From a virus: a DNA stretch of 64,000 nucleotides. Positions 21,509 through 63,619 of this stretch are shown here, one piece after another. The position numbers were made by a program, and so were the translations under genes. A model generated the notes under the pieces. It was not told the origin of the DNA, searched no databases, and saw nothing but the letters and a program-made list of their open reading frames with translations. The stretch's first letter is position 1. The number at the start of each line of letters is the position of its first letter. The stretch covers positions 62,001 through 126,000 of the IMG/VR virus record IMGVR_UViG_3300041411_000178. One strand, 5' to 3'.

Positions 21509-22582
21509 ATGGAATACGTAGAAGGCTCTTTCCAACCTGACGGCGACGGCTTTGGTCTCCCTGACGCACCCCACGTCGAGATCATGTTTGACTCCCTGAA
21601 CGACACTGCTGAGCAGATGGACGTTGCAGGTACCGAATCCATCTCCCTCACCGCTGCTCAACAGTACGCTCAAGGCGTTCTGATGGCCGCTGGTGTCTTT
21701 TCTGGCTCCCAGGTAACCGGTAACGAAGGTGTGTTCTCCGCTATCGGCGACGGCTTCAAGGCAGTTTGGGATTACATCTCCAAAACCTTCAAGTCGATCT
21801 GGGACTTCTTCTTCAACCGTGACAGCGCCAAAGACGCTGAAGTGGCGAAAGAAGCCTGCAAAGAAAACGCCGACGCTCTGGCTGCCGCGAATGCCGGTAC
21901 TCAGGACGAAGCCACCGCCGACAAGCAACTGAACGCAATGGCTGCTGCCGGTGTTGACGGTGAAGAAATCGCCAAGGCGAAGAAAGGCACTCTGGCCGAG
22001 AAGAAGAAAGCGGTCAAAGACGCCCTGAAAGAAATGGGCAAGATGAACAAGAAGGGTCAAGCTGCTTTGGCCACTGTTGTTGCCAATGCCGTCAAAGCCA
22101 AGAAAGCATTCCTGGCCCTCGCTACCTCCCATGGCAGCGAGAAAGAAAACAAAGCGGCCGGTCACCTGGCTGGCAAGACTGACTTCGCTGACAACGCCAT
22201 CGACATGGCCGGCATGGTTCTGAAGTTCACCAACCGTGACGCTCAGTTCCTCAGCAAGCTGGAAAAAGCCACCAGCATCACCGACGTCGGCGCTGCGATT
22301 CAATTCAGCAAAGACTGCGCGGCCAACATCGACTCCCTGAAATCGTTCTCCGACGAATTCAAGAACAAGAAAGCGGCCATCGAGAAAATGCTGACCAGCG
22401 CTGAAGCCAAGATGAAGAAGGCCAAAGACGCGAAGGACAAAGCTGAACTCCAGAAAGACATCGGCGCTCTGCGTGTGATCGTCGGTACTGGCGTGAAAGC
22501 GTCCAAGCTGATCGAAGCCAACTACACCCGCGTATCCGAAGCGTCCACTGCCCTTAACAAGGTCTTTGGTATCGCCGCTTAA
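21509..22582 (+). CDS. Internal head protein with propeptide
   Basis: The 357-residue product starts after AAGGACTGAACAA. Residues 1-73 are acidic and end in VTGNE, then GVFSAIGDGFKAVWDYISK begins an amphipathic, Trp/Phe-rich helix. The remainder is a Lys/Ala-rich helical protein. The Gly-x-Glu tag followed by Gly/Ser and a bulky residue recurs at the matching place in at least six other proteins here. phiKZ-type prohead protease (gp175) cuts after Ser/Ala/Gly-x-Glu in capsid and inner-body proteins, so this should be processed inside the prohead to about 284 residues. A second possible site is AGTE at 41-44. Packaged inside the head with DNA or in the inner body. Confidence 0.75.
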   Translation: MEYVEGSFQPDGDGFGLPDAPHVEIMFDSLNDTAEQMDVAGTESISLTAAQQYAQGVLMAAGVFSGSQVTGNEGVFSAIGDGFKAVWDYISKTFKSIWDFFFNRDSAKDAEVAKEACKENADALAAANAGTQDEATADKQLNAMAAAGVDGEEIAKAKKGTLAEKKKAVKDALKEMGKMNKKGQAALATVVANAVKAKKAFLALATSHGSEKENKAAGHLAGKTDFADNAIDMAGMVLKFTNRDAQFLSKLEKATSITDVGAAIQFSKDCAANIDSLKSFSDEFKNKKAAIEKMLTSAEAKMKKAKDAKDKAELQKDIGALRVIVGTGVKASKLIEANYTRVSEASTALNKVFGIAA

Positions 22583-22618
22583 TAACGCCCGTAAGGCGTT
22601 CTGAGCATCGATCGTGAA

Positions 22619-22660
22619 TATAAGCCCTCCTACTCCTTTGCGGGAGTAGGAGGGCTTATA
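22619..22660. terminator. Bidirectional hairpin terminator
   Basis: Perfect 18-bp arms (22619-22636 and 22643-22660) flank the loop TTTGCG. The plus strand continues with GCTGCTTTACGC, the recurring tail, which also overlaps the end of the convergent polymerase gene. The identical loop is found at 28741, and its reverse complement at 60499. Confidence 0.85.
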
Positions 22661-22666
22661 GCTGCT

Positions 22667-24538
22667 TTACGCTGCTTTCTTCAATGCTTCTGGTAGTACT
22701 GCTGCTTCTCTTGCTTCACGTTCTGCTTTTGCTTTAGCTGCACTTTCACGCAGTTGTTTCAACATATCCGCGTAACCCAGTTCTTCCAGACCTTTCTCGA
22801 AGTCGGATTGCAGTTTGTCTGCTTGTGGGAAACGGAACAGGTCGTGACTCAGACCCATGGCATTCGCTTGAGTACTGCTGGCATAGTTCACGGCGATCTC
22901 CCGGAACTTCATGTCATTAGCACCCTGAATGGCATAGACTTCCATCTGAGTCGTTTTGTTACTGGTGTTGGCTGCCAGTGTACCATGTGGGTAAGCACCC
23001 TCAACGTCAAGGTCAGATACACCACTGCGACCAGAGCTGATAACGTCATCCAGCCCAATGAACATCGCACGACCCATATCGGAGTTCTTCTCGGTATCGA
23101 GGAGAGCAATCCAGTTATCAAGAGTCGGCAGACGATCACTGAAGGTCTTATCACGTTTAGCCGGAGTACTGCCCCAGACATAACCGTGCTCACGTGCAAG
23201 GAAGGACAAGGTGTCCGAAATCAAACGTGGCTGTGAAACAAAGTTGAAGTATTCCGAATAACGCAACAACATCGGAATCGACAGCGAGAAGTCAAAAGTC
23301 TGCTCGTTGATTTCTTCAATAGGCCAGTTGTCTGCAATGTTGTACATCGAATACAGGTACGGATGTTCCTGCTGCATGTATCGATGCCACTGACCCGAGC
23401 CTGGACCTTTGCTCATGCCTTCCTCGGTATACAGCTTACCCTTTACCCCTTCACGGGTTGCAATCGATTCCAGCGAGTAACTCTCGAGCTTACCGGACGA
23501 GAATCGTTTAATGGCGTAACCTGACATGGCGTCAGCCCACTGCCACCTAGCCGGAGTACGAACTGTAGGAAACTTCTCCTGTGGTTCCAGTGGTGTCTTG
23601 TCGCCGTTCTCCTTAACCTTGTGTGTTCGACCCAGGTTCAGTTCATAACTGCGATACTCTCTCGGTACCGATGGATCACTGTACACGTCTGCGAGGTTAT
23701 AGCCTTCAGACCTGAGAGCGCGTTCACAGGCTTCCATGTCATAACCGGCATTCCAGCTCAACACCCAGTCAGGCGACCACTCGTGGAACTTCTGAATACA
23801 CGCAAACGCAATCTGACCTGGAGTATCGAACAATTCGTAAACAATCTCACATTTACGACGGTCAACGTGTTCCTGAATGTATTTCTTTTCGGCTGCTTTT
23901 AATTCAGCCAAGATGGCGAAGTCAGTTAAACGAACCTTCGGGTCAATTCTGTCCTGACGACTCTGGAACCAGCTACGTTGTCCTGCCCAGTACGCCTTAC
24001 CCTTCATGGTAACCGAAGCCATCATGATCGGTTTAACTTCACCAAAGGCTTCCATGTCTGCTTCAACGTCGAATGCCGCTACCGAGTAAGGTTCCTTTTC
24101 CTGATACTCAGCGTACTTCTTGAAGAACTGTTGCTTAAAGTGAACCGGTGTGGTCTGGTCCAAACCAAACACATACTGAATACCTTTACCTGACTTGACG
24201 TCATAGATCGTTGCATTGCGGTCAGCTACCCCAAATAGCTGCTTGCGCACTTCAAACGGAATGTCACGACGGGTACTACGGTATTCACGACAGAACCGTT
24301 CTTCCAGATAGTCCTTCGGCTGCATGAACTTACGGTGCTGCTCTTTGACCAGATGCCAAGGCTGCTTGTAGTTTTCAATCGAGATAAATGAATCGCTTCG
24401 CGAGTTGTCCTCGTGAATGTTGGTAATCTTTGCGGTCAGCAAGTCTTTGCTCTTGTCAAAACGATGCTCTGTATAGACGGCATGTTTGCAGACACGAGCA
24501 ATAATCGGTGATAGGTTTTGTGCTGTGGGTTGTGTCAT
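22667..24538 (-). CDS. Family B DNA polymerase, exonuclease part with motif A
   Basis: Start 24538 is chosen for the AGGATAAAAAC ribosome site; the ATG at 24553 lacks one. The 623-residue protein shows the 3-prime to 5-prime exonuclease motifs in order: ExoI AAFDVEAD (D157, E159), ExoII SWNAGYDM (N263, D267) and ExoIII YNIAD (Y399, D403). Then DLDVEGAYPHG (D511) matches polymerase motif A. It stops about 110 residues later with a Lys/Ala/Glu-rich helical tail. Motifs B (KxxxNSxYG) and C (DTD) are missing, so the polymerase is split and its C-terminal half is encoded elsewhere, as in other phiKZ-like phages. It replicates and proofreads phage DNA. It opposes the structural genes on both sides. 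Confidence 0.9.
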   Translation of the reverse strand: MTQPTAQNLSPIIARVCKHAVYTEHRFDKSKDLLTAKITNIHEDNSRSDSFISIENYKQPWHLVKEQHRKFMQPKDYLEERFCREYRSTRRDIPFEVRKQLFGVADRNATIYDVKSGKGIQYVFGLDQTTPVHFKQQFFKKYAEYQEKEPYSVAAFDVEADMEAFGEVKPIMMASVTMKGKAYWAGQRSWFQSRQDRIDPKVRLTDFAILAELKAAEKKYIQEHVDRRKCEIVYELFDTPGQIAFACIQKFHEWSPDWVLSWNAGYDMEACERALRSEGYNLADVYSDPSVPREYRSYELNLGRTHKVKENGDKTPLEPQEKFPTVRTPARWQWADAMSGYAIKRFSSGKLESYSLESIATREGVKGKLYTEEGMSKGPGSGQWHRYMQQEHPYLYSMYNIADNWPIEEINEQTFDFSLSIPMLLRYSEYFNFVSQPRLISDTLSFLAREHGYVWGSTPAKRDKTFSDRLPTLDNWIALLDTEKNSDMGRAMFIGLDDVISSGRSGVSDLDVEGAYPHGTLAANTSNKTTQMEVYAIQGANDMKFREIAVNYASSTQANAMGLSHDLFRFPQADKLQSDFEKGLEELGYADMLKQLRESAAKAKAEREAREAAVLPEALKKAA

Positions 24539-24621
24539 GTTTTTATCCTGCATTTTATGCCCGCTTTTAGCGCTATATCAATGGCGTCCCAGTATTAAAT
24601 ATCTTTGAGGAGTACAGGTGC

Positions 24622-26028
24622 ATGATCTCGATGGATTTTTTGAAACGACCCGTCGGAGGGTTGGAGTTCATTAACTTCCAGTCCACTGACTTCTACCGCA
24701 AGCAGGTGCTGTTCCTTGAAAGTCAGATCGGTCCCGACGGTGTTCTGAGTAAAGAAGCCATCCCAGGCATCAAAACCCTCATCGAAGAGTTCACTGGCTT
24801 TAAGAACGTGGACCTGAAGTTCTCGAGCAGCGGTAACCTGTCGGTTGACACCGGTTACTTCTCGCCTAACCACGTGCTGAACAACGCATTGGTAGACGAC
24901 CTGCTCAAGCCGACCCAGACCACCCTGTACCGCTGGTTTACCCAGAACAAGGACAAGGTGTTCAAAGGCGGTATCGATTACACCACCGGTAAAGTCCTCG
25001 GTAGTTTCCAGACCGTTCCTGTTACCTTTCAGATCAATCCTAATCTGAATGCCACCTTTCCTGCTGAGAAGGTGAAGAAGTTCGGCGTTCCCCTGGCTGG
25101 TATCCTGGCCGGTGCAATTGCCCATGAACTGGGCCATGTGTTCAGTGGCTGCATGATGCTGCTCACAGTCGCTTCTGACAACATCTATCTGAAAGCCTCT
25201 CTACGGTACTACCGTGAAGCCAAAGACGTCTCAGATCGCGTTGTAGTGCTCAAGGACATCGCTTCGCTGCTGGACGTTCCAGCGGCCAAACAGGGTGACC
25301 TGCAAAAGCTTGCACAGGACCAGGACGATAAAACCCTCTTCCTCTACTTCGATAAATTAATCGCCCAACGTAATATGCGACGCAGTTTGTCAGTAGGTGT
25401 GGAATCGATGTCGTCGGAAGTTGTAGCCGACATGTACGCTATCCGCATGGGTTGCGAGAAGGGTATTATCGCTGCTATCAGTATCCTGACTGACCAGGGT
25501 TGCATCCAGACCGTGGTTAACAGCCTGCTGATCGCCGCAGTGACTACCATCATTGCCCTGCCAGGTTTCATCGCCCTCACGGTGTCTATGGGCGTGGCGG
25601 GTGCAATGTTCATGGCCATGATCTTCTACATGTTCATCTTTGTCCTGAATTACTTCAGCAAGGGTTACTCGGGGGTCTACAACGCCGACCATCGTCGTTT
25701 CGAAGATGCGGTGCGTCAGCTGATCCAGAAGCTGAAAGAAGACACCACCATGCCAACCTCTGAAAAGAATGCGTTGGCGGATGAAGTACAGCAACTGTTG
25801 GCTCACGCTAATTGGCTGCGTCCTTGGTACGAGAGTACTGTGATCCACCGCTTCATGGGTTGGGTGTTCAGCCAGGCTGACTTCAAAGCTCAAGAAGTTG
25901 AACACTACACTTCCGTGATTGCCAACCACGAAGTGAACACCATTTCCGTTAAACTGGCGCGTCTTAAAAACCGCCGTGATGGCACGGACACTTCTCCGGA
26001 AGAAACCAACAAAACTTACGAAGCCTAA
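24622..26028 (+). CDS. Membrane zinc metalloprotease (HELGH, M48-like)
   Basis: The 468-residue protein starts after GAGGAGTACAGGTGC. HELGH at residues 168-172 (context AIAHELGHVF) supplies two zinc-binding His and the catalytic Glu. SSEVVADMYAIRMG (E266, D270) fits the third ligand and the ExxxD signature of M48-type peptidases. Two hydrophobic segments at about 300-322 and 324-344 are likely transmembrane helices after the catalytic domain, and the C-terminus is charged. It is followed 24 bases later by a small gene and then an internal head protein gene, so it is expressed with virion components. It may be a structural or injected protease, or may cleave host envelope proteins; the substrate is unknown. 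It is not obviously the prohead protease, which is of a serine type in this group. Confidence 0.8.
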   Translation: MISMDFLKRPVGGLEFINFQSTDFYRKQVLFLESQIGPDGVLSKEAIPGIKTLIEEFTGFKNVDLKFSSSGNLSVDTGYFSPNHVLNNALVDDLLKPTQTTLYRWFTQNKDKVFKGGIDYTTGKVLGSFQTVPVTFQINPNLNATFPAEKVKKFGVPLAGILAGAIAHELGHVFSGCMMLLTVASDNIYLKASLRYYREAKDVSDRVVVLKDIASLLDVPAAKQGDLQKLAQDQDDKTLFLYFDKLIAQRNMRRSLSVGVESMSSEVVADMYAIRMGCEKGIIAAISILTDQGCIQTVVNSLLIAAVTTIIALPGFIALTVSMGVAGAMFMAMIFYMFIFVLNYFSKGYSGVYNADHRRFEDAVRQLIQKLKEDTTMPTSEKNALADEVQQLLAHANWLRPWYESTVIHRFMGWVFSQADFKAQEVEHYTSVIANHEVNTISVKLARLKNRRDGTDTSPEETNKTYEA

Positions 26029-26052
26029 CCCTACCCATAAAGGAACTCCACC

Positions 26053-26448
26053 ATGTCGCATTTGATACATGTACTCGCTTTCAAGAAAGAGCTGACCGAA
26101 AAGGGTATTACTTGCCCGATCGAACAAAGCAAGCTGCTGGCCGAACCGTTCACTCGTGCACTGATCCGTCGCTCGTACCGCCTGGGTGGCTGGACCTCCG
26201 AGATGGATGAGAAAGCCTGGGCCATGCTCGACAAGTGGAACAAAGTGTCGCCTATCCCTGCCGCGCTGATCCACAAGGGTGCTCAGGTTCGTATCGGCGC
26301 ACTCAACGGCGCCATGCTGAACACCGGCTCCCTGCCGTGCAAGAAAGAATTCACCTGCATCGTGAACGACGTAGACGTTGGCGATCTGCCGACCTGCACC
26401 GTTCTGACCGATTACCTGGTACGTGAACTGGAGGCTAACCGTGAGTGA
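26053..26448 (+). CDS. Hypothetical protein, 131 aa
   Basis: Starts after AAAGGAACTCCACC. Soluble mixed alpha/beta protein with a compact C-terminal half containing two Cys (LPCKKEFTCIV at about 98-108). No recognised motif. It lies between the metalloprotease and an internal head protein gene whose GTG start overlaps its stop, so all three are coupled. A partner or chaperone role is only an inference. Confidence 0.65.
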   Translation: MSHLIHVLAFKKELTEKGITCPIEQSKLLAEPFTRALIRRSYRLGGWTSEMDEKAWAMLDKWNKVSPIPAALIHKGAQVRIGALNGAMLNTGSLPCKKEFTCIVNDVDVGDLPTCTVLTDYLVRELEANRE

Positions 26449-27955
26449 CTCGGCAACCACCCAGATCGATGATTACCAGCAGATTGGTAACTCGAGCCCT
26501 GTTGACTCGTATCAGCCGGGCGAAAACAAACAACGTGTCGACCTGACGGAATACTACCAGGTTAGCGAACAGAACAACGCCACCGTTATGGTGATGGGTT
26601 CTGAACAGCTGAACCTCGGTATGTTCTCCAAGCAGGTTGCCCGTCACCTCAAACTGCAAGGCGTCGAGAAGTACGACCCGTTCCCTTCCGAGCGTAATGC
26701 TCGTATGGGTGCTGAAGGTTTCTTCAGTGCGGTATACAACGGCTTCAAGGACTTCATCGAAGCGATCATCAAGTACATCCGCATGGCCATTGACTGGGTT
26801 GTCGACATGGTCAAGGGTATCTTCGGGTTCCGTAAGAGCGCTCGCATCACCAAGGCGATCGACGATGACCTCGGGAACCTGAAGAAAGAGTTCGAAGACA
26901 CGATGATCAGCTTTGGTTTCAACATTGCTGAGTACAACGTAGAGAACTTCCTCGGTACGCTGCCGGCGGGTCAGGATCGTGTGGCTCAAATCCATTTGCT
27001 GAAGAACCGTCTCGACAGCGATGTGGATCAGATCAAGAAGCTGGAAGCGTGCGTCCCACTGATCCAGCAGATCAACGCCAAGATCCTGCAAGCCGGTGAG
27101 AAAGTCAACACCGCCCAGAAGCGCCTGAAACGCGTTATCCTGGACGAGTACAACCGTTCCCGTGTTCGCTATAAAGGCGGTAACCACGTCGACGGTGCGA
27201 ACTCCAGCGAAGTCACAGTGGTGCTCAAGGCTATTCAGGAAACCTCGCTCGCCCTGGATACCAAGGAAATTGCCAGCTTGATGCAGAAGCTGTACAAGGA
27301 CCTTTACAGCATCGAGTTTGCAAACGAGGAACTGACGCACAAGTTCGATCAGGTGCAGAACCGCCTGAAGACCGAAGTGCAGGCCAGCACCAGTGTTGTC
27401 CGCGGTGTAGACGTCAGCGCTACCATGACCAGCATCCAGGCCCTCAACCTGCGCTACCAGAGTCTGGTGGACAGCGAGATCGACATCTCCAAGGTCAACT
27501 GGAAAGCGCTGGGTGAGATCGTTGACAAGTCTGACGGTGAGAAGCTGTCATCCATGTCGACCTATTACAACGCTCCTGCACTGCTGGCGGCTTACCAGGA
27601 ACTGTCGGTCGATATTCGCAACTTCGTTCAGTGCTCTTATGGCATCAGCAAGGAAGTCCTGCGGGTAGAGAAGCAGATCACCAGCCTGGTGGAGTGGTAC
27701 GGTCGTATCCACGCCTATTACTACGCCGGTGTCCTGGGTGACGCTGAAGGGATCGCGAAGGTTGTTGACGACGCGGTTAAACGGGGACTGAGCCCAATCG
27801 TCGAGGGTCGTGTCTTTATCAAGGATGCGGACGCCAAGACTTTTGGTGAGAAGCTGACGGCAAACGTTAACTTCGCCATCCAGAACGATATTGGTGGGGT
27901 GAAATCCAGCCTCAACAACTTCACCAAGCAAATCGGGGTAGGTAAATTGCTATGA
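26441..27955 (+). CDS. Internal head protein with propeptide, 504 aa
   Basis: GTG 26441 is preferred because GGAGG stands six bases upstream; the in-frame GTG at 26423 would put that site inside the gene. Residues 1-92 are a Gln/Asn/Asp-rich propeptide ending in RMGAE. GFFSAVYNGFKDFIEAIIKY follows, a long amphipathic helix reaching a hydrophobic KGIFGF. The rest is helical with coiled-coil character. Predicted cleavage by the phage prohead protease would leave about 412 residues. The start overlaps the upstream stop and the gene end overlaps the next start (ATGA). It is one of a family of proteins with the same tag and helix layout in this window. Confidence 0.75.
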   Translation: MSDSATTQIDDYQQIGNSSPVDSYQPGENKQRVDLTEYYQVSEQNNATVMVMGSEQLNLGMFSKQVARHLKLQGVEKYDPFPSERNARMGAEGFFSAVYNGFKDFIEAIIKYIRMAIDWVVDMVKGIFGFRKSARITKAIDDDLGNLKKEFEDTMISFGFNIAEYNVENFLGTLPAGQDRVAQIHLLKNRLDSDVDQIKKLEACVPLIQQINAKILQAGEKVNTAQKRLKRVILDEYNRSRVRYKGGNHVDGANSSEVTVVLKAIQETSLALDTKEIASLMQKLYKDLYSIEFANEELTHKFDQVQNRLKTEVQASTSVVRGVDVSATMTSIQALNLRYQSLVDSEIDISKVNWKALGEIVDKSDGEKLSSMSTYYNAPALLAAYQELSVDIRNFVQCSYGISKEVLRVEKQITSLVEWYGRIHAYYYAGVLGDAEGIAKVVDDAVKRGLSPIVEGRVFIKDADAKTFGEKLTANVNFAIQNDIGGVKSSLNNFTKQIGVGKLL

Positions 27956-28710
27956 GCCGAGCAGCTATGTGGGAAGAGGTCGTTAAACTGAAGGGCGTGG
28001 CTGAAGTCACTACCCAGACGTATATCGACGAACTCGAGTCGCTTATCAGTGCAATGGAAGACGATGGTCTGCCACTCACTGTTGCAACAAAGATCATCCG
28101 CGGTATCTGGGGTAACACTTCCCGGGCTAACGCCTTGCTGGTACAGCTGTCGGAATGCTTCCCGGAGACTAACAAGTCTGTGGTGCTGTACGCCGGCTTG
28201 CCTGCTGATGAAGCGCGTAAGCAGTTGGGTGAGCTGGAAGAAACCCGCGAGTACTTCAAGGTGATCTACGACTACATCAACGAAGTAGTCGACACCACGT
28301 TCAAGACACTGCTGGCCGCCGAATTTACCGTCGAAAGCCAGGACTGCCTGAATGAGTTCCGTTGTGAAGTGCTGAAGTATGTCGCCTACACGGGTGATTA
28401 CTTCTACGAAGCCGAGCAGAAGTTGAAAGACGGCTCGCTGACTTCGTGGGATCAACTCAACCGTGTGCCGGACATCGTGATCAACGGTGACTACATGTTC
28501 GTTACCGACTTCAAGGAATCCCTGGCCAAAGCTCACGTCGAATATCTGAAGGGAACTTTCCATCCAGATCTGCGCTCGTCGGGTTACAGCCTGAAGGACT
28601 TCTCGTGGCGCACCAGCGACATGTGCAACAAACTGAAGCTGCCGTTCATGTTTGCGGAATACCTGAACTCCAAGTACCCAGGTACGCCGTTGGAACAGCC
28701 TGCTGAATAA
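27952..28710 (+). CDS. Hypothetical virion-operon protein, 252 aa
   Basis: The ATG overlaps the stop of the internal head protein gene (ATGA). The product is acidic, helical and soluble, with several aromatic clusters (YDYINEVV, GDYFYEAE). No Gly-x-Glu cleavage tag followed by an amphipathic helix is evident, so it is not an obvious member of the processed family. It ends the operon before a strong hairpin. Function unknown. Confidence 0.65.
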   Translation: MSRAAMWEEVVKLKGVAEVTTQTYIDELESLISAMEDDGLPLTVATKIIRGIWGNTSRANALLVQLSECFPETNKSVVLYAGLPADEARKQLGELEETREYFKVIYDYINEVVDTTFKTLLAAEFTVESQDCLNEFRCEVLKYVAYTGDYFYEAEQKLKDGSLTSWDQLNRVPDIVINGDYMFVTDFKESLAKAHVEYLKGTFHPDLRSSGYSLKDFSWRTSDMCNKLKLPFMFAEYLNSKYPGTPLEQPAE

Positions 28711-28726
28711 GTTGTACCGGCTATAA

Positions 28727-28760
28727 CCTACCCTACCTCCTTTGCGGGAGGTAGGGTAGG
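28727..28760. terminator. Bidirectional hairpin terminator
   Basis: Arms CCTACCCTACCTCC (28727-28740) and GGAGGTAGGGTAGG (28747-28760) flank the loop TTTGCG. The plus strand continues ATTATGGCTGCTTTAT, the recurring tail, and the minus-strand virion gene ends within it. Confidence 0.85.
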
Positions 28761-28772
28761 ATTATGGCTGCT

Positions 28773-32786: not shown

Positions 32787-32819
32787 TTCTCTGGCTCCCA
32801 TTAATGAAGGTAATTAAAA

Positions 32820-33926: not shown

Positions 33927-34807
33927 TGGATATTTTCTCCTACGTCGGGAAAGTAAAGGCGGTAAAGAAGAACGAGATCCTGGCGACCATCATCAACGTT
34001 AAGGTAGCCGGCGACGACCTCAAGGCGAGCCTGGAAAACCTCCAGAGTAATAACATCGACCTGAGCGATCAGATCGAGCACTGGGCGATTACCCGTAGCC
34101 TGAAGAAGTCGATCACCAGTGCTGGCTTCAATGCCCGTGACCTGGTCGGCGTCTCCATGCACAACCTCAGCGCTATCGATGCACTGACCACTGAACTGAC
34201 CAAGGCTGTTAACAGCTACAAGGAAAGTCTGTGGGACGGTAAGCTCATGACTGTTAAGCAGGCTAACCTGTTGAACGTCATCGAGTTCCTGAACTTCTGG
34301 CTGCGCTATACCCGCATGGTCTACGATGTTCTGCTGACCATGAACAACCAGAAAGTTGATCCGGCGCGTTACCTGCAACCGATCGACCTGAAGTTCATCA
34401 ACGGGACGGCTTCGTTCTACACCAACTTCAGTATCGACCTGCTGCGCGGTGCAGCTGTGATCATGAAGAACATGAACGACCTGCCGGACATCGAGATCAC
34501 TCAGACCTCGCTGGACGTCATGGAAAGCACCGGTGGTAAGACCCAGGTCGACCTGCTGAACAAAGGCTTCGGTATCCACCTGGTGAACCCTGTCTTCTGG
34601 TGGGGTCTGGGCTGGAGCAAGATCCAGGGTCTGCGTATCGAAAGAATGCGCAGCGACAACGAGCACTTCGCCATGAAGATCTCGCAAGCGATCAACCTAC
34701 GTAACGGCACGAATGACCCGAGTCTCGATCGTCGCATCGAGATCTACCAGGACAAGATCATTCGCAACGACCACACCATTTCCGAGATCGAGGCCGACTA
34801 TGCCTGA
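33926..34807 (+). CDS. Virion-operon protein, 293 aa
   Basis: ATG 33926 overlaps the preceding TGA, with GGAGG six bases upstream. The protein is helical, charged and soluble, with an aromatic stretch at about residues 247-260 (NPVFWWGLGWSKIQG) that could pack against partners or a membrane. No domain recognised. It is coupled to genes on both sides, so it probably belongs to the same head or neck assembly. Confidence 0.65.
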   Translation: MDIFSYVGKVKAVKKNEILATIINVKVAGDDLKASLENLQSNNIDLSDQIEHWAITRSLKKSITSAGFNARDLVGVSMHNLSAIDALTTELTKAVNSYKESLWDGKLMTVKQANLLNVIEFLNFWLRYTRMVYDVLLTMNNQKVDPARYLQPIDLKFINGTASFYTNFSIDLLRGAAVIMKNMNDLPDIEITQTSLDVMESTGGKTQVDLLNKGFGIHLVNPVFWWGLGWSKIQGLRIERMRSDNEHFAMKISQAINLRNGTNDPSLDRRIEIYQDKIIRNDHTISEIEADYA

Positions 34808-35318
34808 ATTTCGCCGGGGTAACAACGGGTACGTCAGCGCTCACCTCGGTGATGGCGAACTGGCTGCGATGTTCAAGAACCTTAAGTACCTCCGTCAGGA
34901 TGCGTACCAGGACTTCGAACTGATCATGAAGGGTGACGTAACCATCGAAACCCTGCGCGAGGTTACTGCCCTGTGCGGTACTTCCTTCGCAGGGTGGATG
35001 GAAGTCAACTTCGATAACGGCAAAGGTCCGTTGGCTGATTTGGTCCGTGACATCATTCACTTCCTGAATGGTCGTTGTGGTCACCGTCAGTTGATCACGT
35101 CAGTTGGTATCCAGGAGAACAAACTCCAGGACGCTAACAGTACCCGTTACGGTACATACACGCCCACCTCTCGTCAAGGCGGTCATGCCGCTTTCTTGCA
35201 GGATGGGGACATGGTCTACGACAACGACCTCTATCGCCTGATGGCTGGCGTAGGAGCAGGCGTCGTCGGACGCATTTTCTTGCTCCTTGGAGGAGAGACC
35301 TACTATGGGTCAAATTAA
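34800..35318 (+). CDS. Virion-operon protein with C-terminal hydrophobic segment, 172 aa
   Basis: The real start is ATG 34800 (GAGG upstream, overlapping the stop of the gene before). The longer in-frame start at 34713 lies inside the coding part of that gene. The N-terminal half is charged; the last 30 residues include LMAGVGAGVVGRIFLLLGG, a Gly-rich hydrophobic stretch that could span a membrane. The stop overlaps the next start by 14 bases. Function unknown. Confidence 0.6.
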   Translation: MPEFRRGNNGYVSAHLGDGELAAMFKNLKYLRQDAYQDFELIMKGDVTIETLREVTALCGTSFAGWMEVNFDNGKGPLADLVRDIIHFLNGRCGHRQLITSVGIQENKLQDANSTRYGTYTPTSRQGGHAAFLQDGDMVYDNDLYRLMAGVGAGVVGRIFLLLGGETYYGSN

Positions 35319-36618
35319 CCAGGAACTCCAACTGGCCGCTGAAATGGCTGCAATCTCCGCGGTGAAGTCTGCCGAGATTGTCAGCCTGGCCAAAGATACC
35401 GGCGACCTTGATCGTTTCCAGAACCGTCTGGAGAACAGCAAGGATCGGGTGAACATGGTTAAGGCGGTGCTGGAAAGCGCTGAGCCTCACCACGTCACGC
35501 CTGAGCTGGCCACCGTCATGGATGCCTCTCTTGCACGTTCCAGTGTCGACATTCCGCCTGCAAGCGGTCTGGACGCCGTTGAGGGCGCTGAGGCGCTCGG
35601 ACGAACCCTGATGCCGGAAGATTACCTTCTGACGCGTCTGATGGGCTGTGAGAGCTTCCTGGCGGACTTCTTCCGCAAGTCAAAGGAAGTAGTGGTCCGT
35701 ATCAACGACGGTTTCCGCGAAGCCTACATCGTCTTTACCCAAAACCACGACAGTCTGATTGATGCCGTGGATGCTTTGGAACGTGGGATTGAATCCACTC
35801 CGAAGTTTGACGAAGGCCGTGAGAACCTGTTGCTGGGCGCCCGTCTGTTCAACCTGTTCAAGGTGAACGGTCAGGTCAGCGGTGACTGGGTCGGTGATGT
35901 AAGCAAGCTGAGCCGTACTGTTTCTGCGTTGAGTTCGAACTACTACCTCAACAGCAAGAACAACATGAATGCAGTCCTGAGCTTCTTCGGCGGGTTTGCA
36001 GGATTGGATCAGCAGACCGGTCTGGAACGTTTCCTCGATCTGCCGTCTCAGTTGCCATCGACTCCGTTCAAGGAATGCAACAAACCCAACAAAGACTTCT
36101 CCACTGGTCGTGTTACTGCGAAACAGTCGGTTGAGTTGATGGGCGGTGCGTACTTCATTGACATCCGTCAGACCAAACCGAACTACCGCATGCACACCCC
36201 GGACGATGTGGATCAATTCCTCTACATCTACCTCAACGAAGAAAAGACCGGCTTCGAGAACAGTTCCGAAATCGTTTACCCGAAACTGGGTAACGAAGTT
36301 AAGAGCCTCTCGACTCAGCAGATCAAGGTGATTGCGAAACACCTGAAAGAACTGCTGAAGGAATGGAGCAAGGTATTCGAAGCGGGTGATAAGTACAAGC
36401 TCGCTGACAGCGATTACAACGATGTCGCCAAAGGCATCTACGAGTCGCAGATGGACGATGAACTGAAAGACAAGGTACTCAGTGCCTTCTCCTCGATTGT
36501 TCGTCGCAACCAGATCGAGCTGCTGACGCTGCGGGCCACCCTGACCAATTACCTGACCTTGGTCATCCACGGCTTGATCGAAGTATCCAACCTTTCGGTT
36601 AAGGCCAACACGCCGTAA
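35305..36618 (+). CDS. Internal head protein with propeptide, 437 aa
   Basis: ATG 35305 follows GGAGGAGAGACCTACT; the TTG at 35287 would lie on that ribosome site. Residues 1-116 are an acidic helical propeptide ending in LMGCE, then SFLADFFRKSKEVVVRINDG begins an amphipathic helix. The body is helical with Tyr/Phe clusters (SSNYYLNSKNNMN). It belongs to the tag-bearing set shared with 36630, 37695, 39094 and 40655. Predicted mature size is about 321 residues. The Cys two places after the Gly of the tag is shared with the 32820 gene. Confidence 0.7.
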   Translation: MGQINQELQLAAEMAAISAVKSAEIVSLAKDTGDLDRFQNRLENSKDRVNMVKAVLESAEPHHVTPELATVMDASLARSSVDIPPASGLDAVEGAEALGRTLMPEDYLLTRLMGCESFLADFFRKSKEVVVRINDGFREAYIVFTQNHDSLIDAVDALERGIESTPKFDEGRENLLLGARLFNLFKVNGQVSGDWVGDVSKLSRTVSALSSNYYLNSKNNMNAVLSFFGGFAGLDQQTGLERFLDLPSQLPSTPFKECNKPNKDFSTGRVTAKQSVELMGGAYFIDIRQTKPNYRMHTPDDVDQFLYIYLNEEKTGFENSSEIVYPKLGNEVKSLSTQQIKVIAKHLKELLKEWSKVFEAGDKYKLADSDYNDVAKGIYESQMDDELKDKVLSAFSSIVRRNQIELLTLRATLTNYLTLVIHGLIEVSNLSVKANTP

Positions 36619-36629
36619 GGAGGCTCGTC

Positions 36630-37643
36630 ATGAGCAGTTCTAAGAGTCTGTACCGCCACTGTCTGGACAATCACCTGGACATGATTGATAACCAGCATGT
36701 TATCAGTCTGGCGGGCGGTCAGTTGTTGGCCTTGCCTCACCGCCTGAAGATTCAGGTTGAGGGTAACGAGGACTTTATGGAGAACGTTAAGGAGCTTGGC
36801 TCTGGTATGTTCGAAGTAAGCAAGTGGGTGGGTGGCAAGACCATCGATCTGTTTGGTAAGGCTCTCGGTGCCGCAGGCTCTGGTCTGTATCGTGCCTTCA
36901 GTGACAACGACACGTTGATCCGCAAGCTGTCGCAAAACTTCAGCAAGATCGACGATCACGAGTTGAACCTCAGCAAAACCACGATTGCCCTGATTACCGC
37001 CAATGGCGATATCGGCCATATTGGGCATGATATGGACACTCTGCTGAGCACGTTGGATGCACTGGATAAGCACAGCAAAGAGATTCTGAGTTACCTGGAC
37101 AAGCAGCTTCTGGTTGCCCGTAAGCTCAAAGGCGCTTCTTCGTCTGAGAACATCTTCGCCATTGTGGAGGAGTTTGAAGCCTTGAAGTACCCTGCGTTTA
37201 AGTTGCCGCACTCCAAGGGCACTTCGACGTACTCAGATACCCTGCCGGGTGGCAAGGTCTGGGAATGTGTATACGGTGATGGCAAGAGCCCGAAATATGT
37301 TATAGGTGGTGACGCACCTGCTGAGGCTGGGTCCACTGTGACTTTGTCCAAGTCTGAAGTCAGTGCTTTGCTGACCAAGCTGGACAAGATCAACTCTATG
37401 CACAAACGCTTGAAGACGTCCTATGACGGCTACTTGAGCTTTATCAAGAGCTGGGCAGAGATGGTGAAAACTGTCGACGCTAACCTTAGCAAGCTGGATA
37501 AGGTTAGTTCAAGTGCACGAGCAGAGGGTGAGAAACTCCTCAACGGCGAAGCCAATGCCTTGGCATTCTATAGCGGATTCACTCCTCGGGTGGTCAGCTA
37601 CACCGACAGGTACATTCATGGTGTGCTTGGTGTTTTCGCTTGA
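36630..37643 (+). CDS. Internal head protein with short propeptide, 337 aa
   Basis: The start follows GGAGGCTCGTC. The propeptide is short (residues 1-47), His/Leu-rich, and ends in VEGNE. DFMENVKELGSGMFEVSKWV then opens the mature part. The body is a helical, Lys/Ser-rich protein with a central Gly/Pro-containing region (about 190-235) and a helical C-terminal third. The tag is the same as in neighbouring genes. Mature size would be about 290 residues. Lower GC in this gene than in the next suggests weaker translation selection. Confidence 0.7.
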   Translation: MSSSKSLYRHCLDNHLDMIDNQHVISLAGGQLLALPHRLKIQVEGNEDFMENVKELGSGMFEVSKWVGGKTIDLFGKALGAAGSGLYRAFSDNDTLIRKLSQNFSKIDDHELNLSKTTIALITANGDIGHIGHDMDTLLSTLDALDKHSKEILSYLDKQLLVARKLKGASSSENIFAIVEEFEALKYPAFKLPHSKGTSTYSDTLPGGKVWECVYGDGKSPKYVIGGDAPAEAGSTVTLSKSEVSALLTKLDKINSMHKRLKTSYDGYLSFIKSWAEMVKTVDANLSKLDKVSSSARAEGEKLLNGEANALAFYSGFTPRVVSYTDRYIHGVLGVFA

Positions 37644-37694
37644 TGTTTAATTAAACACTCAAATTTCCTTCGTTAACGAAAAAGGATACATGTG

Positions 37695-38951
37695 ATGCAC
37701 GATATTCTCGATATGTACAAAGGCGCCGAAGAACTGGGTCTGGACGGTGCAGGCGGCGAAGCCGTTGTCGACGCAGTTGAAGACGTCGTAAAGACCGAAA
37801 TCGCCGAAGTGACCGTGGCGATCGAAGAGCAATCGACTGCTGTTGAGCAGCTGGTTGCCAAGGTCGACGACCTGGAAGAAGCCGTGGAAGAAGCGACCGA
37901 AGTCGTTGAAGGCATGGAATCCCTGATCAACTCCGGCAACTTCAACCCACTGGCTTTCGCACAGCTGTACAACCGCGGCGTTAAGCTCGGTAACAAGCTG
38001 GGCGCGAACATCCAGGGCGACCGCATGGGCGCCGAGTCGATCACCGACGCTTCGACCGCTCAGATGTATGCTCGCCAAGGCATGGAAAGCATCATGGACT
38101 CCATCAAGGAGTACGGCAAGAAGGCCGTCGAGTTCATCAAGCACATCTTCAACACCGTCATCAACTTCTTCGTGTCGATCTTCGACAAGGCCACTGGCCT
38201 GGAACGTCGTTGCGACCAGCTGAAGAAGCGCCTGGAAGACAGCACCAAGCTGAAAGAAACCGTCAAGCTGGGCGGCTGGAACGTCTACGTCGACTACGCC
38301 AAAGGCGGCCTGGGCAGCGCGAAAACCGCTGGCTTCGAAGCCACTCAAGGCGCGATCGCCAAACTGACCGAGCTGGGCAAGAACGTTACCGGCATCAGCC
38401 TGGAAGACTTCAAGTCGGCTTACAGCGGCCTGATCTCTGCCATCAAAACCGACGCCAAGGCGGCCGGCAAGTACAACGAGAAGAAAGCTGGTACCCATGA
38501 CGTCCTGATCGGCGTGATGAACGGTATCCGCATTCAGGTCTCGTACATCGACAGCGAAATCAAGACCATGGCAGAAGCTGCCGCGGCCGCTCGTTCGCTG
38601 AAGATGGTTGTGATGAAAGACCCAGAAGCCAAGAAACTGACCTCGGGCGAAGTCAAAGCCAAAGCCGACAAGTCGGCTCTGCTGAAGGCGATCTCCGAAG
38701 TGCGTGGCACCGGTGCGTTCATCCGCAACACCAAAGTGGCCAAAGCTTTCAGCGCTGCTGAGCGTGACCGCGTTGTGGGTTCCCTGAACTCGATCAAAGC
38801 TGGCGACGCCGACAAGTCGGCTGAAGTCAACGGTCAAGTGAACCTGGTCAAAGCTGTTTACAGCTCGACTTCCACCATGGCCACCAACGTGACCAAAGTG
38901 GCAATCAACACCGCCGGCGCCGTGCTGGACTGCGTTGCTGCTCACTTGTAA
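37695..38951 (+). CDS. Major internal head protein with long acidic propeptide
   Basis: ATG 37695 has AAAGGATACATGTG upstream. The first 114 residues are very acidic (Glu/Val repeats such as EEAVEEATEVVEG) and end in RMGAE. A second tag, RQGME at 127-131, is followed directly by SIMDSIKEYGKKAVEFIKHI, an amphipathic helix running into FNTVINFFVSIF. The mature part is Lys/Ala-rich and helical. Strongly biased codon use, comparable with the capsid gene, points to high copy number. An acidic propeptide could mask a basic DNA-facing mature domain until cleavage. The gene ends in a structured 3-prime region and a hairpin terminator. Confidence 0.75.
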   Translation: MHDILDMYKGAEELGLDGAGGEAVVDAVEDVVKTEIAEVTVAIEEQSTAVEQLVAKVDDLEEAVEEATEVVEGMESLINSGNFNPLAFAQLYNRGVKLGNKLGANIQGDRMGAESITDASTAQMYARQGMESIMDSIKEYGKKAVEFIKHIFNTVINFFVSIFDKATGLERRCDQLKKRLEDSTKLKETVKLGGWNVYVDYAKGGLGSAKTAGFEATQGAIAKLTELGKNVTGISLEDFKSAYSGLISAIKTDAKAAGKYNEKKAGTHDVLIGVMNGIRIQVSYIDSEIKTMAEAAAAARSLKMVVMKDPEAKKLTSGEVKAKADKSALLKAISEVRGTGAFIRNTKVAKAFSAAERDRVVGSLNSIKAGDADKSAEVNGQVNLVKAVYSSTSTMATNVTKVAINTAGAVLDCVAAHL

Positions 38952-38987
38952 GGGTGCTGTAGCAGTTGCCGTAATACCGTAAGGTAG

Positions 38988-39037
38988 CTACTAAGGGCGA
39001 GCAATCGCCCTTAGTAGTCTTATGGCCGCATTTTGTT
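38988..39037 (+). terminator. Hairpin terminator with recurring tail
   Basis: Perfect 13-bp arms (38988-39000 and 39005-39017) enclose a GCAA tetraloop, followed by CTTATGGCCGCATTTTGTTTTTTC. The 36 bases between the stop codon and the arms contain short inverted repeats (CTGTAGCAG). Confidence 0.85.
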
Positions 39038-39061
39038 TTTTCAAGGGATGCTATAGGTTTT

Positions 39062-39073
39062 GCTACATATCCT
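39062..39073 (+). promoter_or_regulatory. Putative phage promoter element GCTACATATCCT
   Basis: The element sits between a terminator and the start at 39094 and resembles CCTACATTATTC at 2329. It is the weakest member of the set and closest to its start codon (20 bases). Confidence 0.35.
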
Positions 39074-39093
39074 TTTTAACAGGTACTTTAACC

Positions 39094-40152
39094 ATGACGC
39101 AGCCAGTGCTTGCTCGACGTTTTATCAATACACCCACTGTTGAAGCACTCTACAACGCCGAGAATCCTGAGAGCGTTGTGGATGCTCCAGATGACAAGAT
39201 CGACGACCTGTCGGACGAATACGACCAGGTGTCCGGTACGGAGTCGCTGTACTACCAATACATCTTCTCGCACATCCCTCGCAAACAGGATCTTGACAGT
39301 GTCCAAGGGACTGAAGGTTTCATGAGCTGGGTTAAAGACATGGTCGGTTCTTTGATCACGGCTGTGAAGAACTTCTTCAAGTGGGTCTTCAGCTTCTTCA
39401 CTGGCAAGAAAGAAGTAGCGGCTCGCAAGAACAAGAACCTCATCGAGAAACTGGACAAGAATGGGGTTAAGCATCACTTCACCCATTACCCTGCTGGCTA
39501 TGTTAGCGTGTGGGCCAGCAAGGCCAAGATCCCAGCTAACCTGGACTGGATGAAGAAGGCCGGTGAAGACTGGAAGAAAGCCAACGCCAAGACCGTTGAG
39601 TATATCAACGAAATCAAGAAGACCATTCAGACAGCCGAAAGCACTTACCTGAAGAAAGGTCAGTTGAGCAAAGGCAAGGATGAACTGGAGAAGCTCTTCA
39701 AGGCTCACCACGACGCCATTGTCCGTATCTTCGGCAAAGAGCCTGCTCTCTTTATCGGCGGTTGCACTGTGTCGGTTACAGCGCACGGTAAGCTGTCCCT
39801 GAAGCCCGATCCTGATCTGCTCGAAGCAGACAAGAACGCCGGCTTTATCAGCAGCGAAACCACCACCCGTACTTTGGCTGGTGACCTGACTGCAATGAAC
39901 ACCACGTTCCAAGGCACGATCAACAAATCGACTGAACTGGAAAGTGTCTTCATTAAAGGTCTCAACAACAGCCTGTCTTTTGCCAATACGGTTGAAGTCA
40001 ATGATGAAGCTGTGGCCAAGCAACTGACCAACAGTCTGAATGAGATCGTGCGTAACAGTATGGCCGGCGTTAAGGCGCTGGAGACTCTGTTGTTCAAGGT
40101 CTACAACTCTCACACCGCTATTGTTGAAAGCAGCGTAGAAACCAAAGGGTAA
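39094..40152 (+). CDS. Internal head protein with propeptide, 352 aa
   Basis: I start at ATG 39094 (MTQPVLARRF); the longer in-frame reading from 39022 would begin inside the terminator tail. Propeptide residues 1-74 are acidic and hold two tags, SGTE at 47-50 and VQGTE at 70-74. GFMSWVKDMVGSLITAVKNF follows, an amphipathic helix running into FKWVFSFF. The mature part is Lys-rich and helical. It has a beta-like segment at about 220-245. Predicted mature size is 278 residues. It follows its own promoter-like element and lies 6 bases before a small partner gene. Confidence 0.7.
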   Translation: MTQPVLARRFINTPTVEALYNAENPESVVDAPDDKIDDLSDEYDQVSGTESLYYQYIFSHIPRKQDLDSVQGTEGFMSWVKDMVGSLITAVKNFFKWVFSFFTGKKEVAARKNKNLIEKLDKNGVKHHFTHYPAGYVSVWASKAKIPANLDWMKKAGEDWKKANAKTVEYINEIKKTIQTAESTYLKKGQLSKGKDELEKLFKAHHDAIVRIFGKEPALFIGGCTVSVTAHGKLSLKPDPDLLEADKNAGFISSETTTRTLAGDLTAMNTTFQGTINKSTELESVFIKGLNNSLSFANTVEVNDEAVAKQLTNSLNEIVRNSMAGVKALETLLFKVYNSHTAIVESSVETKG

Positions 40153-40158
40153 TCCATT

Positions 40159-40644
40159 ATGCGCTTGAATTGCTTTAACAAAACTTTGTTGGTTGCCACT
40201 GCCATGGAGCAACAGGGTATTGATGGATTGAACCCACGTTTCGGTGTTGGACGTTCTGTCAGTGATGACGCGTTCAGTTACGTTGAGCAAGGCGCTGTAG
40301 GTGCTGGCTTGATTATCGAAAAGGTTGACCTGGGGGAGCTGTTTAAAGGTATCCCTCAGGACATCAGTGGTTTGACCTTTGGCATGCCTGAGCAAGCCGA
40401 CCTGCAAGCCGTAGACGCTCTCGTAGACGGCTGTGTAGAAGAAAGTATCGTGACCTTGTCCGCCATTGATCAAACGGGCGGTGGCGACGACCTCAGCATT
40501 CTGTTCTTTAACTGGATGCGGCTCGTTGGTCTGAGTGACCTGACCCGATTTGAAGTAGAGCTGGGTACGAGTGAGGGGTTCCTCTACGTAACAGCCCGTC
40601 GGGCCACGTACTACCGTGGTACCGTCGTCATCAAGTATTTGTAA
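40159..40644 (+). CDS. Hypothetical virion-operon protein, 161 aa
   Basis: Starts 6 bases after the previous stop, with AAAGGGTAATCCATT upstream. The product is a mixed, mildly acidic soluble protein with a beta-rich C-terminus (TSEGFLYVTARRATYYRG). A GTSEG stretch near the end is too far from the N-terminus to be a propeptide tag. It lies between two internal head protein genes. No family recognised. Confidence 0.6.
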   Translation: MRLNCFNKTLLVATAMEQQGIDGLNPRFGVGRSVSDDAFSYVEQGAVGAGLIIEKVDLGELFKGIPQDISGLTFGMPEQADLQAVDALVDGCVEESIVTLSAIDQTGGGDDLSILFFNWMRLVGLSDLTRFEVELGTSEGFLYVTARRATYYRGTVVIKYL

Positions 40645-40654
40645 GGAGAAGGGA

Positions 40655-42088
40655 ATGAATTTGTATTTCGAGCTGGGGCTTGTCAGTCTGTTGCTGACGG
40701 GTAAAGCAGGAAACCTGGATCCTGAAAAGAATCCGGTGATGGTTGAGCTTCTCCGTTCCATGGGTTTGGACTACGTCGTTGATCACGACGCTGATGCTGA
40801 CAGCTCTCCTGCAAAGGAACGTCTGTTCAGCATCGTCGCTGCTCTGGAAGACCGTCTGGCGTATTACGACGGTAGCGAGCTGGAAGTTAACTGGCCGGTG
40901 AACCAGTACCTGAACGAACTGTTGAAAGACGCTCAGAACGGCACCTTTACTCAAGAGCGCATTGTGGCCATGCAGGTCTGCGCTCTGGGTAACAAGACCA
41001 TGGACAACATGTCGGGGTCTGCTGTTGAAGAGTGGATTGAATTTGCTCACAACAAGCTTCAGTACTTCATCGAAGTGTATGAAGGTCATGAAGCACCTAA
41101 CCTCGTGGGTGCTCAGGTTCATATCCGCGCCATCGAATACGCTGAGAAGGTGTTGAACATCATCGATGTGTTCGTGACCAGTCGTCTGGGCATGTTCATG
41201 GGTGCGGAAGAGTTCTCTCCTGCACAACTCGAAGACCTGCCAGAACCACAGGCGGTTAACTTCGACGAGCCTGAAGACTGCCGTAAGGACGCTGACTGTG
41301 ATTGTGGCTGTGTGGTGGATCACACCATGAACCTGATCCAGGGCATGGAAGACTACCTGAACGGTCAGAATACGCCTGCGGCCAACTACCTCATCGGTGT
41401 GGCCAGTGCTAACAACGTGCGTCTGAGCTCCGTAGAGGGTGCAGAAGGTGCGATCCTTGACGGCATCAAGGATATGGCCATGAAGGCCTGGACGGCGATC
41501 ACAGAGTCTTTCTCTGCTATTAAGGAGTGGTTCACTTCGAACGATGGCGAGGCAGACACCAAAGCGATCAAAGATTCGGCGGAAAACAACAAGAAAGATC
41601 TGGCGGCCTCTAAAGAAGGCAGCGGTGATCAAATCAACCCAGCGGCTAAAGCGGGTTTGGTTAAGTTGGCGGCTGAGGCCGATCCATCGGGTGCGTTCAG
41701 CGCTATCGTGGGTGGTCTCAACTCGAAGTCTGACGCGGCCTCTTGCCTCGACAAGCTGTTGGGTCTCCTGCAAAAGCAACAGGGTCCTGCGGCTGGTTTG
41801 CAAGAGCTCATGAACCTTGCTCAAAAACGCCTGGCCGATCTGAAAGCGGCAGCCAGTGCAACAGCGGGCAAGGATGAGAAAAACAAGGAAGTTGTAGGCA
41901 CTGCCAAGAAGACGGTTCAGGAAAGCATTGCTGCTACGAAAGAATCGATCAAGCAGGTAAAAGAGAAAGTCACTGCCCACAAGAAACTGGTGTCAGGTAT
42001 CCGCAAAGCGGTTAGCGGTATCAATACTCAGATCTTCCCAGCCGCAGAGCCTAAAGAGAAAGCACCTAAAGGCGATAAGAAGGAGTAA
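40655..42088 (+). CDS. Internal head protein with very long propeptide, 477 aa
   Basis: ATG 40655 follows AAGGAGAAGGGA. The N-terminal 264 residues form a folded acidic domain, not a short leader. A Cys-rich stretch at 209-219 (CRKDADCDCGC) lies in it, and it ends in SSVEGAE. GAILDGIKDMAMKAWTAITE begins the amphipathic helix and leads to FSAIKEWF. The mature part is a Lys/Ala/Gln-rich helical protein of about 213 residues ending KGDKKE. An earlier MGAE at 182-185 may be another cut site. If cut, more than half of the product would be released, so the N-terminal domain may have its own role in assembly. Confidence 0.7.
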   Translation: MNLYFELGLVSLLLTGKAGNLDPEKNPVMVELLRSMGLDYVVDHDADADSSPAKERLFSIVAALEDRLAYYDGSELEVNWPVNQYLNELLKDAQNGTFTQERIVAMQVCALGNKTMDNMSGSAVEEWIEFAHNKLQYFIEVYEGHEAPNLVGAQVHIRAIEYAEKVLNIIDVFVTSRLGMFMGAEEFSPAQLEDLPEPQAVNFDEPEDCRKDADCDCGCVVDHTMNLIQGMEDYLNGQNTPAANYLIGVASANNVRLSSVEGAEGAILDGIKDMAMKAWTAITESFSAIKEWFTSNDGEADTKAIKDSAENNKKDLAASKEGSGDQINPAAKAGLVKLAAEADPSGAFSAIVGGLNSKSDAASCLDKLLGLLQKQQGPAAGLQELMNLAQKRLADLKAAASATAGKDEKNKEVVGTAKKTVQESIAATKESIKQVKEKVTAHKKLVSGIRKAVSGINTQIFPAAEPKEKAPKGDKKE

Positions 42089-63500: not shown

Positions 63501-63598
63501 GCTGCAATCGCTGGCGACACATTCTTGATGTTTTCACGAATCTTGGTGTAGTCGACTGACCGGTTACCACGAGTCGCGGTGCGCGTTTCGAACCCCAT
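60545..63598 (-). CDS. Portal protein, phiKZ gp129 type
   Basis: Start 63598 has GTGAGGTTCAT directly upstream; the ATG at 63649 has no site. The protein has 1017 residues. The N-terminal two thirds follow the layout of large myophage portals, with a wing domain rich in Asn and Asp, a helical clip/stem region near 640-800, and several Trp/Tyr. Residues of about 289-298 read MGAESFDNII, with the same GAESFD as the capsid propeptide, followed by a Lys/Glu-rich disordered stretch of about 50 residues. The last 105 residues are an extreme Pro/Gly/Asp/Glu tail. It is expressed alone on the minus strand and diverges by 21 bases from the next gene. The portal docks the terminase and the neck. Confidence 0.75.
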   Translation of the reverse strand: MGFETRTATRGNRSVDYTKIRENIKNVSPAIAATLRNATPKNGVAPDREEVGGTKTINEYKLNRLSNIISNNINSAYDLRAITPMIDKANLIWNTIILYPNGKQDKMLTYDTQSTKIKNAALHTSLLAIWDDYYTNDYKIESLLKKMLDDIMWNTGSYAIFNLSRPGLDYLINGSEVDPSKRTGNEEFNKAKSELDAEFVFADGKTKVKNKGRFVRNPHAPKTPNAGAVSGLEALFTTGSDFVEEEFPIFDPAVDTENEWGITITDNPAVLYLQKFQEAKRDRDIKSVMGAESFDNIISSAMKSQKERDADLAKQQEEDEKNAGKDGKPKKAAKAGKDKPEQATTMNLNEEQLNNLNASVFKSRNIRSQSLQFIKSNDSLSVAPYGRGLSWHIPSEAIFPIHFNGSNGKIDDYIILLDPETGAFLKNTDDPEFYQSLKKNKDSIANKNKMGSENSLISSLRAVQSGNPCDFDMSEFADMAEKSIVRQFISSVYSDKGNSVSITLDEEVNKIFLSRIFRKQGVRCLYVPGEAVSYGAIKYNRLGIGQSLTQAAKTHIARLAAYDVADALANLEAAQPHTEMVINIEKEDSDPEQTIAIARATFFDTNPKLHSILSTAQLSVPQVVDALREASLSVKVNAGDNVHLPTPDISTQGKQKDNFKPVDPASRDAVMNSISNYFNLPRAWLDVADDQNNFKIEAVTEYEMVFNQAINWQEMICDFLIDFMRKHTRVNGPLMQDLVQCILDNKKLWKPDSKELLEGTDEEKVKVILADFFTSIYVYLPVPTSTESTNKLKDSLDAVTALVSAWEEAAGNNGVLPQILKALNIQSEDFTDVEIKSMVKSALTSEAFRRFNLPMPFDDIVNEGKGGGIASFVQQMIHQRINTATFVADLIEGITDSNKKLNSQYGEKLAKKLAPPEPEPEEGANGLDTDGGLGGGPDDAPVEPGTGTDDQSLDTSDGDLGTGDDLGPPMPGDEPADSPPAADDADNPPAEEDADKPAGDKDPGGKAYNPFNGSKDE

Positions 63599-63619
63599 AT
63601 GAACCTCACGAGTTAAACT

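Follow-up and report, generated by a model that had tools for sequence, protein, structure and literature searches.

In the 64,000-base window analysed here (bases 62001-126000 of the 224,004-base virus record IMGVR_UViG_3300041411_000178), seven proteins, A to G, carry a Gly-x-Glu (G-x-E) junction behind an N-terminal propeptide, and an eighth member, H, is encoded outside the window (Table 1). It is highly probable that a jumbo phage of the EL/RisingSun branch makes these as internal head proteins, with propeptides cut at G-x-E by the phage's own gp175-type protease and a shared N-terminal module that spread by gene duplication; judging from the sequence, the front ends are very probably removed at these sites by the head-maturation protease. 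The first-pass annotation of the window had described at least seven cleaved internal head proteins with a conserved junction and propeptides of about 47 to 264 residues. All seven open reading frames (ORFs) and junctions are present at the predicted starts, the propeptides measure 47-264 aa, and the Gly and Glu of the junction are nearly invariant in EL, RisingSun, and IMG/VR orthologues. The assignment to cleaved internal head proteins is likewise strongly supported, because it draws together matches to PF12699, synteny, mass spectrometry (MS) of RisingSun, and a protease whose presumed site recurs in the major capsid protein (MCP) and a portal-like protein.

By profile score, C, D, and E are inner-head paralogues of the phiKZ_IP family (PF12699), with 144.6, 28.6, and 130.2 bits, respectively, against a Pfam cut-off of 27 bits. 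B falls below this cut-off (21.5 bits), A, F, and G have no match, and H is absent from the genome-wide PF12699 search; A, F, and G match unnamed PHROGs only, cross-matching one another around the junction. The closest named relatives of the phage are Pseudomonas phage EL and the Erwinia phages RisingSun and Joad, themselves distant members of the phiKZ group, and a DNA-level search gave short EL and OBP matches only. A to G lie in a head-gene block that is syntenic with EL gp50-66 (partners gp50, gp54, gp61, gp62, gp63, gp64, and gp66) and RisingSun gp59-73 (partners gp59, gp66-69, and gp73), and whose counterparts, phiKZ gp84-97 and the SPN3US gp45-54 block, contain the inner-head genes of those phages. 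The gene order of A to G agrees with all four phages, while H lies elsewhere. The orthologues of A comprise EL gp50 and 8 proteins from IMG/VR. Of the RisingSun orthologues or paralogues, MS of a crude lysate detected gp59 (the B orthologue), gp68, gp71, gp72, gp73, and gp5, with gp66 at low confidence, and gp68, the E orthologue, was the second-ranked lysate protein with 80 peptides (PMC6034870).

The record also encodes a prohead protease resembling phiKZ gp175, whose C-terminal AGLE/DF (a slash marks a candidate cut) stands opposite PALE/NY of gp175 when the two are aligned by eye. The MCP has six G-x-E within residues 1-135 and one in the other 595, and the portal-like protein has five within residues 1-309, with the same sites in its EL and RisingSun versions. 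The EL and RisingSun MCPs resemble the window MCP in their sites, except that two positions in RisingSun read S-x-E and A-x-E. Because the MCP, the portal-like protein, and the protease all carry G-x-E, the motif that had been proposed as a family tag appears to serve chiefly as a recognition site for the protease and is not confined to the members.

The motif is enriched approximately threefold in member propeptides. When the defining junction itself is left out, the 828 propeptide residues of the eight members hold 14 G-x-E compared with 4.67 expected from 2000 composition-preserving shuffles, none of which reaches 14; mature parts (12 observed, 11.0 expected) and 40 other window proteins (58 observed, 60.8 expected) are at chance. 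Counts of the strict pattern G-x-E-[GSDA]-[FILMVWY] are 15 for the propeptides (852 residues), 0 for the mature parts (2362 residues), and 6 for other proteins (15068 residues). Among 10-18 orthologues per member from EL, RisingSun, and IMG/VR, Gly at P3 and Glu at P1 are nearly invariant and P2 varies, the sole exception, in A, being an alignment shift in L029, which reads AGNE/EGVF; P1' is mostly Ser, Gly, or Ala, and P2' Phe or Leu. Cutting at all sites would yield pieces of 10-96 residues from the paralogue propeptides and 11-36 from that of the MCP. Although the propeptides are acidic and A-x-E is slightly raised too in the paralogues (13 versus 7.5, p 0.03), a chance or compositional motif of acidic N-terminal regions is very hard to credit and was rejected on the shuffle enrichment and the strict-pattern counts, since the shuffles preserve composition, the MCP and portal-like propeptides show no excess of A-x-E, S-x-E, or T-x-E, and P3 and P1 are kept across all orthologue groups.

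Several points weigh against cleavage at G-x-E as proposed here. The cut positions in this phage are deduced from sequence rather than mapped from peptides, the RisingSun sample was a crude lysate in which gp67 and gp69, the orthologues of D and F, were not listed (PMC6034870), and at the presumed last site the RisingSun MCP, encoded at L019:4365-6548, reads AAAE/ALF where the window phage and EL read GAE/ALF. The Gly preference may therefore not be absolute across the branch. A P3 preference leaning towards Gly alone is probably a variant of the EL/RisingSun lineage.

In the mechanism that we propose, each internal head (inner-body or ejection) protein would be made with a propeptide that, by inference from SPN3US and T4, keeps the precursor inside the prohead during assembly with the capsid protein. 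The gp175-type protease would then cut after the Glu of G-x-E, usually at several sites per propeptide, and would also cut the MCP, the portal-like protein, and itself. The propeptides would exit in short pieces, the mature proteins staying behind, mostly with an amphipathic Trp/Phe/Lys helix at the new N-terminus. Ejection of the members with the DNA is suggested by phiKZ, in which some inner-body proteins are injected (PMC13282480). The module of A, F, G, and H (propeptide tail, first cut, about 20-30 residues, second cut, helix) would have spread by gene duplication, after which the helical bodies diverged fast.

This module is a homologous segment of about 95 residues, with the consensus roughly DHxExxxDGxxDTVxGTExLTxAQxYLxxVLxAxG....VxGNEGxxDxIKxGxxKAWxxIKxxFKxIWxFFF. 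A profile built around the second cut, with about 60 residues on its N-terminal side and 40 on its C-terminal side, matches, at E <= 0.01, 6 proteins in this genome, 10 in RisingSun, 6 in EL, 8 in Aeromonas phage ZPAH34, 4 in Miami, and 3 in OBP; E (9e-8) and B (2e-3), which lay outside the training sets, are matched via the helix. With an earlier module profile (A1), neither phiKZ nor SPN3US gave a match at E <= 0.1. In hhalign, A, H, F, G, and RisingSun gp5, gp8, gp71, and gp72, together with two RisingSun ORFs (at 165 kb and 134 kb), are linked at 86-100% probability, apart from one pair (F with the 134-kb ORF, 48%), and E and B reach 93% and 94%, respectively; the maximum among 336 decoy comparisons was 3.8%. 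C and D lack the module: their best hhalign values with other window members are 45% (C-F) and 27% (D-F), and neither has a profile match at E <= 0.01 in this genome. One apparent module match, to the portal-like protein of RisingSun, was discarded, with a best-domain E of 0.26.

These results divide two further claims of the first-pass annotation. Propeptides unrelated in sequence are found in B, C, D, E, and largely F, but the last approximately 55 propeptide residues are homologous in A, H, G, and six RisingSun paralogues. Likewise, a shared Trp/Phe helix holds for A, F, G, and H, and for E and B through the helix alone, but the stretch behind the cut in C and D lacks homology to it.

The same annotation saw in the junction a modular tag on diverse cargo, which is not established, as divergence after duplication explains the data at least as well. 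In the form that we weighed, recombination would have placed the module before genuinely unrelated cargo proteins for head loading. Whereas the module links its bearers as described, body-body hhalign with the initial profiles stays below 15% for all pairs but A-H; in BLAST the bodies fall into 18 components while the modules join, and tblastn matches of A outside close relatives are limited to residues 9-153 or 14-119. However, deeper profiles align the A and H bodies end to end (92%, E 5e-7) and suggest a relation between F and one RisingSun body (45%). AlphaFold predicts A as an all-helical bundle, with blocks of pLDDT (predicted local distance difference test) 72-94 after residue 110 beside a low-confidence propeptide and Trp/Phe helix, and G as all-helical with a low predicted TM-score (0.44). 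Foldseek with the two models gave overlapping sets of uncharacterised viral proteins (from Joad, RisingSun, PS1, and Miami), at poor TM-scores of about 0.2-0.5 and with the shared module contributing to the overlap, as Foldseek scores amino acids too. Against the PDB, A matched generic helical bundles only, none at E <= 0.001, and a PDB sequence search with E and B gave nothing relevant. Domain profile searches found no body with a recognisable enzymatic or other known domain, and mean identity among orthologues is higher in the helix than in the faster-evolving body for A (0.87 and 0.66), E (0.82 and 0.67), and F (0.72 and 0.51), though not for C, D, and G. Because the bodies appear all-helical though without detectable sequence relation except between A and H, the likelier reading is one duplicated family of helical paralogues diverging fast, rather than a tag carried by varied cargo, and we regard the recombination of unrelated proteins as doubtful.

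A stronger form of the cleaved-head reading, compatible with it, makes the helix the key common element: cleavage would unmask a membrane-active helix that works after ejection at the host inner membrane, in an entry conduit or the early infection vesicle. The helix has a hydrophobic moment of 0.5-0.75, with Trp/Phe and Lys, and the best moment over the first 36 residues ranks no lower than the 98th percentile among window proteins in A, B, C, E, F, and H (92nd in G, 91st in D). No segment evolves more slowly than the helix in A, E, and, the deep propeptide aside, F, and in the A model the helix has low confidence and does not pack against the body. The mature starts of SPN3US gp53 and gp54 and the sequence behind the SQE of phiKZ gp86 are similar in character, and early infection vesicles are formed from host membrane (PMC13282480). 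However, amphipathic helices also serve protein packing, the low confidence of the A model may be accounted for by its shallow alignment alone (9 rows), and C and D have no homologous helix. We consider membrane activity tentative and on balance unlikely; a contact between the released helix and the host membrane, or its packing within the inner body, is speculative. Less probable still is that across the EL/RisingSun/OBP/Miami/ZPAH34 branch the bipartite double-cut module is a general cassette for head loading and membrane activation, placed on up to ten proteins per virion with genuinely different bodies, in which the part leading up to the two cuts, or lying between them, would be the capsid-targeting element and the second cut would free a membrane-active helix. 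Such a cassette would amount to a natural, removable cargo-loading tag.

Table 1. Head proteins, protease, and neighbouring features. Positions are window coordinates except those prefixed G000:C1, which refer to the full record; "ends" gives the last base of the Glu codon.
Feature	Position	Strand	Length (aa)	Start codon	Candidate sites	Remarks
A	21509..22582	+	357	ATG	GTE43/S; GNE73/G (GNE73/GVF)	module-bearing inner-head protein; propeptide 1-73
A helix	residues 74-111 (nucleotides 21728-21841)
B	26441..27955	+	504	GTG (upstream GGAGG)	GAE92/GFF (ends 26716)	helix related to module
C	35305..36618	+	437	ATG	GAE96/AL; GCE116/SFL (ends 35652)	PF12699 phiKZ_IP 6e-42; helix non-homologous to module
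D	36630..37643	+	337	ATG	GNE47/DFM (ends 36770)	PF12699 phiKZ_IP 1e-6; site only
E	37695..38951	+	418	ATG	GAE114/SIT (ends 38036); GME131/SIM (ends 38087)	PF12699 phiKZ_IP 1.5e-37; helix matches module
F	39094..40152	+	352	ATG	GTE50/SLY (ends 39243); GTE74/GFM (ends 39315)	module-bearing
G	40655..42088	+	477	ATG	GME232/D (ends 41350); GAE264/G (GAE264/GAI; ends 41446)	module-bearing
H	G000:C1:204189-205163	-				module-bearing; outside window
MCP	50341..52533	+			G-x-E at residues 36, 52, 84, 102, 113, 135 (last ends 50745)	phrog_3231; likely protease sites
Portal-like protein	60545..63649	-			G-x-E at residues 21, 193, 203, 250, 309	phrog_3004; similar to phiKZ gp129, E 5e-19
Prohead protease, phiKZ-gp175-like	G000:C1:17512-18135					E 2.5e-21, 32% identity to phiKZ gp175
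Conserved head-block protein	24622-26028					phrog_2767; HELGH metallopeptidase-like motif, hydrophobic stretches

Some members show features of their own. The two candidate maturation cuts of E lie 17 residues apart and are both kept in most orthologues. G carries an extra N-terminal propeptide region of about 210 residues, and within residues 209-222 of its propeptide the IMG/VR orthologues have an invariant Cys cluster, C209...C215-x-C217-x-C219, followed by DH; the cluster is present in EL gp66, is missing from RisingSun gp73, and is possibly a metal site. H adjoins a SNF2/RapA-like helicase ORF, a pairing also seen in EL (at about 167 kb) and ZPAH34; in the latter, the adjacent ORF carries the annotation putative virion-associated RapA-like helicase. 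At the position equivalent to that of the conserved head-block protein with HELGH, the SPN3US gene has HEVGH.

The cleavage biology in general is known from phiKZ and SPN3US, for which long propeptides, a cut after x-X-E, and a role like that of a capsid-targeting sequence (CTS) have been published (PMC5694885, PMC10052503, PMC7411985). What is new, as far as the open-access literature searched goes, is the near-exclusive use of G-x-E by protease and substrates alike in the EL/RisingSun branch, together with the double-cut module, found on about ten proteins of RisingSun. With the MCP, portal-like protein, inner-head proteins, and protease appearing jointly shifted towards Gly at P3, this would join SPN3US (A-X-E) and phiKZ (S/A/G-X-E) as a third clear example of a head-protease specificity apparently narrowing together with its substrates, and the module provides a defined candidate of about 95 residues for a giant-phage head-targeting signal.

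The published P3 motifs are A-X-E in SPN3US, S/A/G-X-E in phiKZ, and S/A/G/T-X-E in 201phi2-1 (PMC5694885), so Gly at P3 is inside the known range, as the latter two include it. Like the phiKZ inner-body proteins (gp93-95, gp162, and gp163; PF12699, processed by gp175), the members are paralogous, with long and variable propeptides apparently cut C-terminal to Glu; C, D, and E belong to the same family by score, the genomic block is the same, and the protease is of the same family. Unlike in phiKZ, the sites are almost G-x-E alone, and the A/F/G/H module was not found there with profile A1. B resembles phiKZ gp86 and SPN3US gp47, the latter an essential, cleaved ejection protein, in gene position and in a hydrophobic Trp-containing helix directly behind a Glu site, but it belongs to PHROG 14541 rather than 14440 (gp86) or 8131 (gp47), and the gp47 segment is described as transmembrane.

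The members also resemble paralogue family A of SPN3US (gp53 and gp54; protease gp245) in their long propeptides (124-125 aa in SPN3US) and several cut sites. SPN3US gp53 was found by experiment to be cut at several such sites (PMC10052503); its maturation cut is AQE125/GWKETLKDLFER (PMC7411985), and an amphipathic helix with Trp opens the mature protein. An inner T=1 shell is built from gp53 and gp54 when the SPN3US protease is mutated (PMC7552025), and the targeting role proposed here for the propeptides is taken from gp47 amber data in that phage (PMC5694885). The P3 residue, however, is Ala in SPN3US and Gly here, and there are two members there compared with eight here. The diverged paralogues gp53 and gp54 have an identical 15-residue N-terminus, which recalls the shared front element described here, but this common stretch is short and lies at the extreme N-terminus, away from the maturation cut. 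Finally, the CTS of T4 IPI-III and Alt (protease gp21; motif L/I-X-E, PMC9026906) is presumably comparable as a propeptide that directs proteins into the prohead and is removed after Glu, although it spans 10-20 residues, has Leu or Ile at P3, and shows no sequence relation to the propeptides of this phage.

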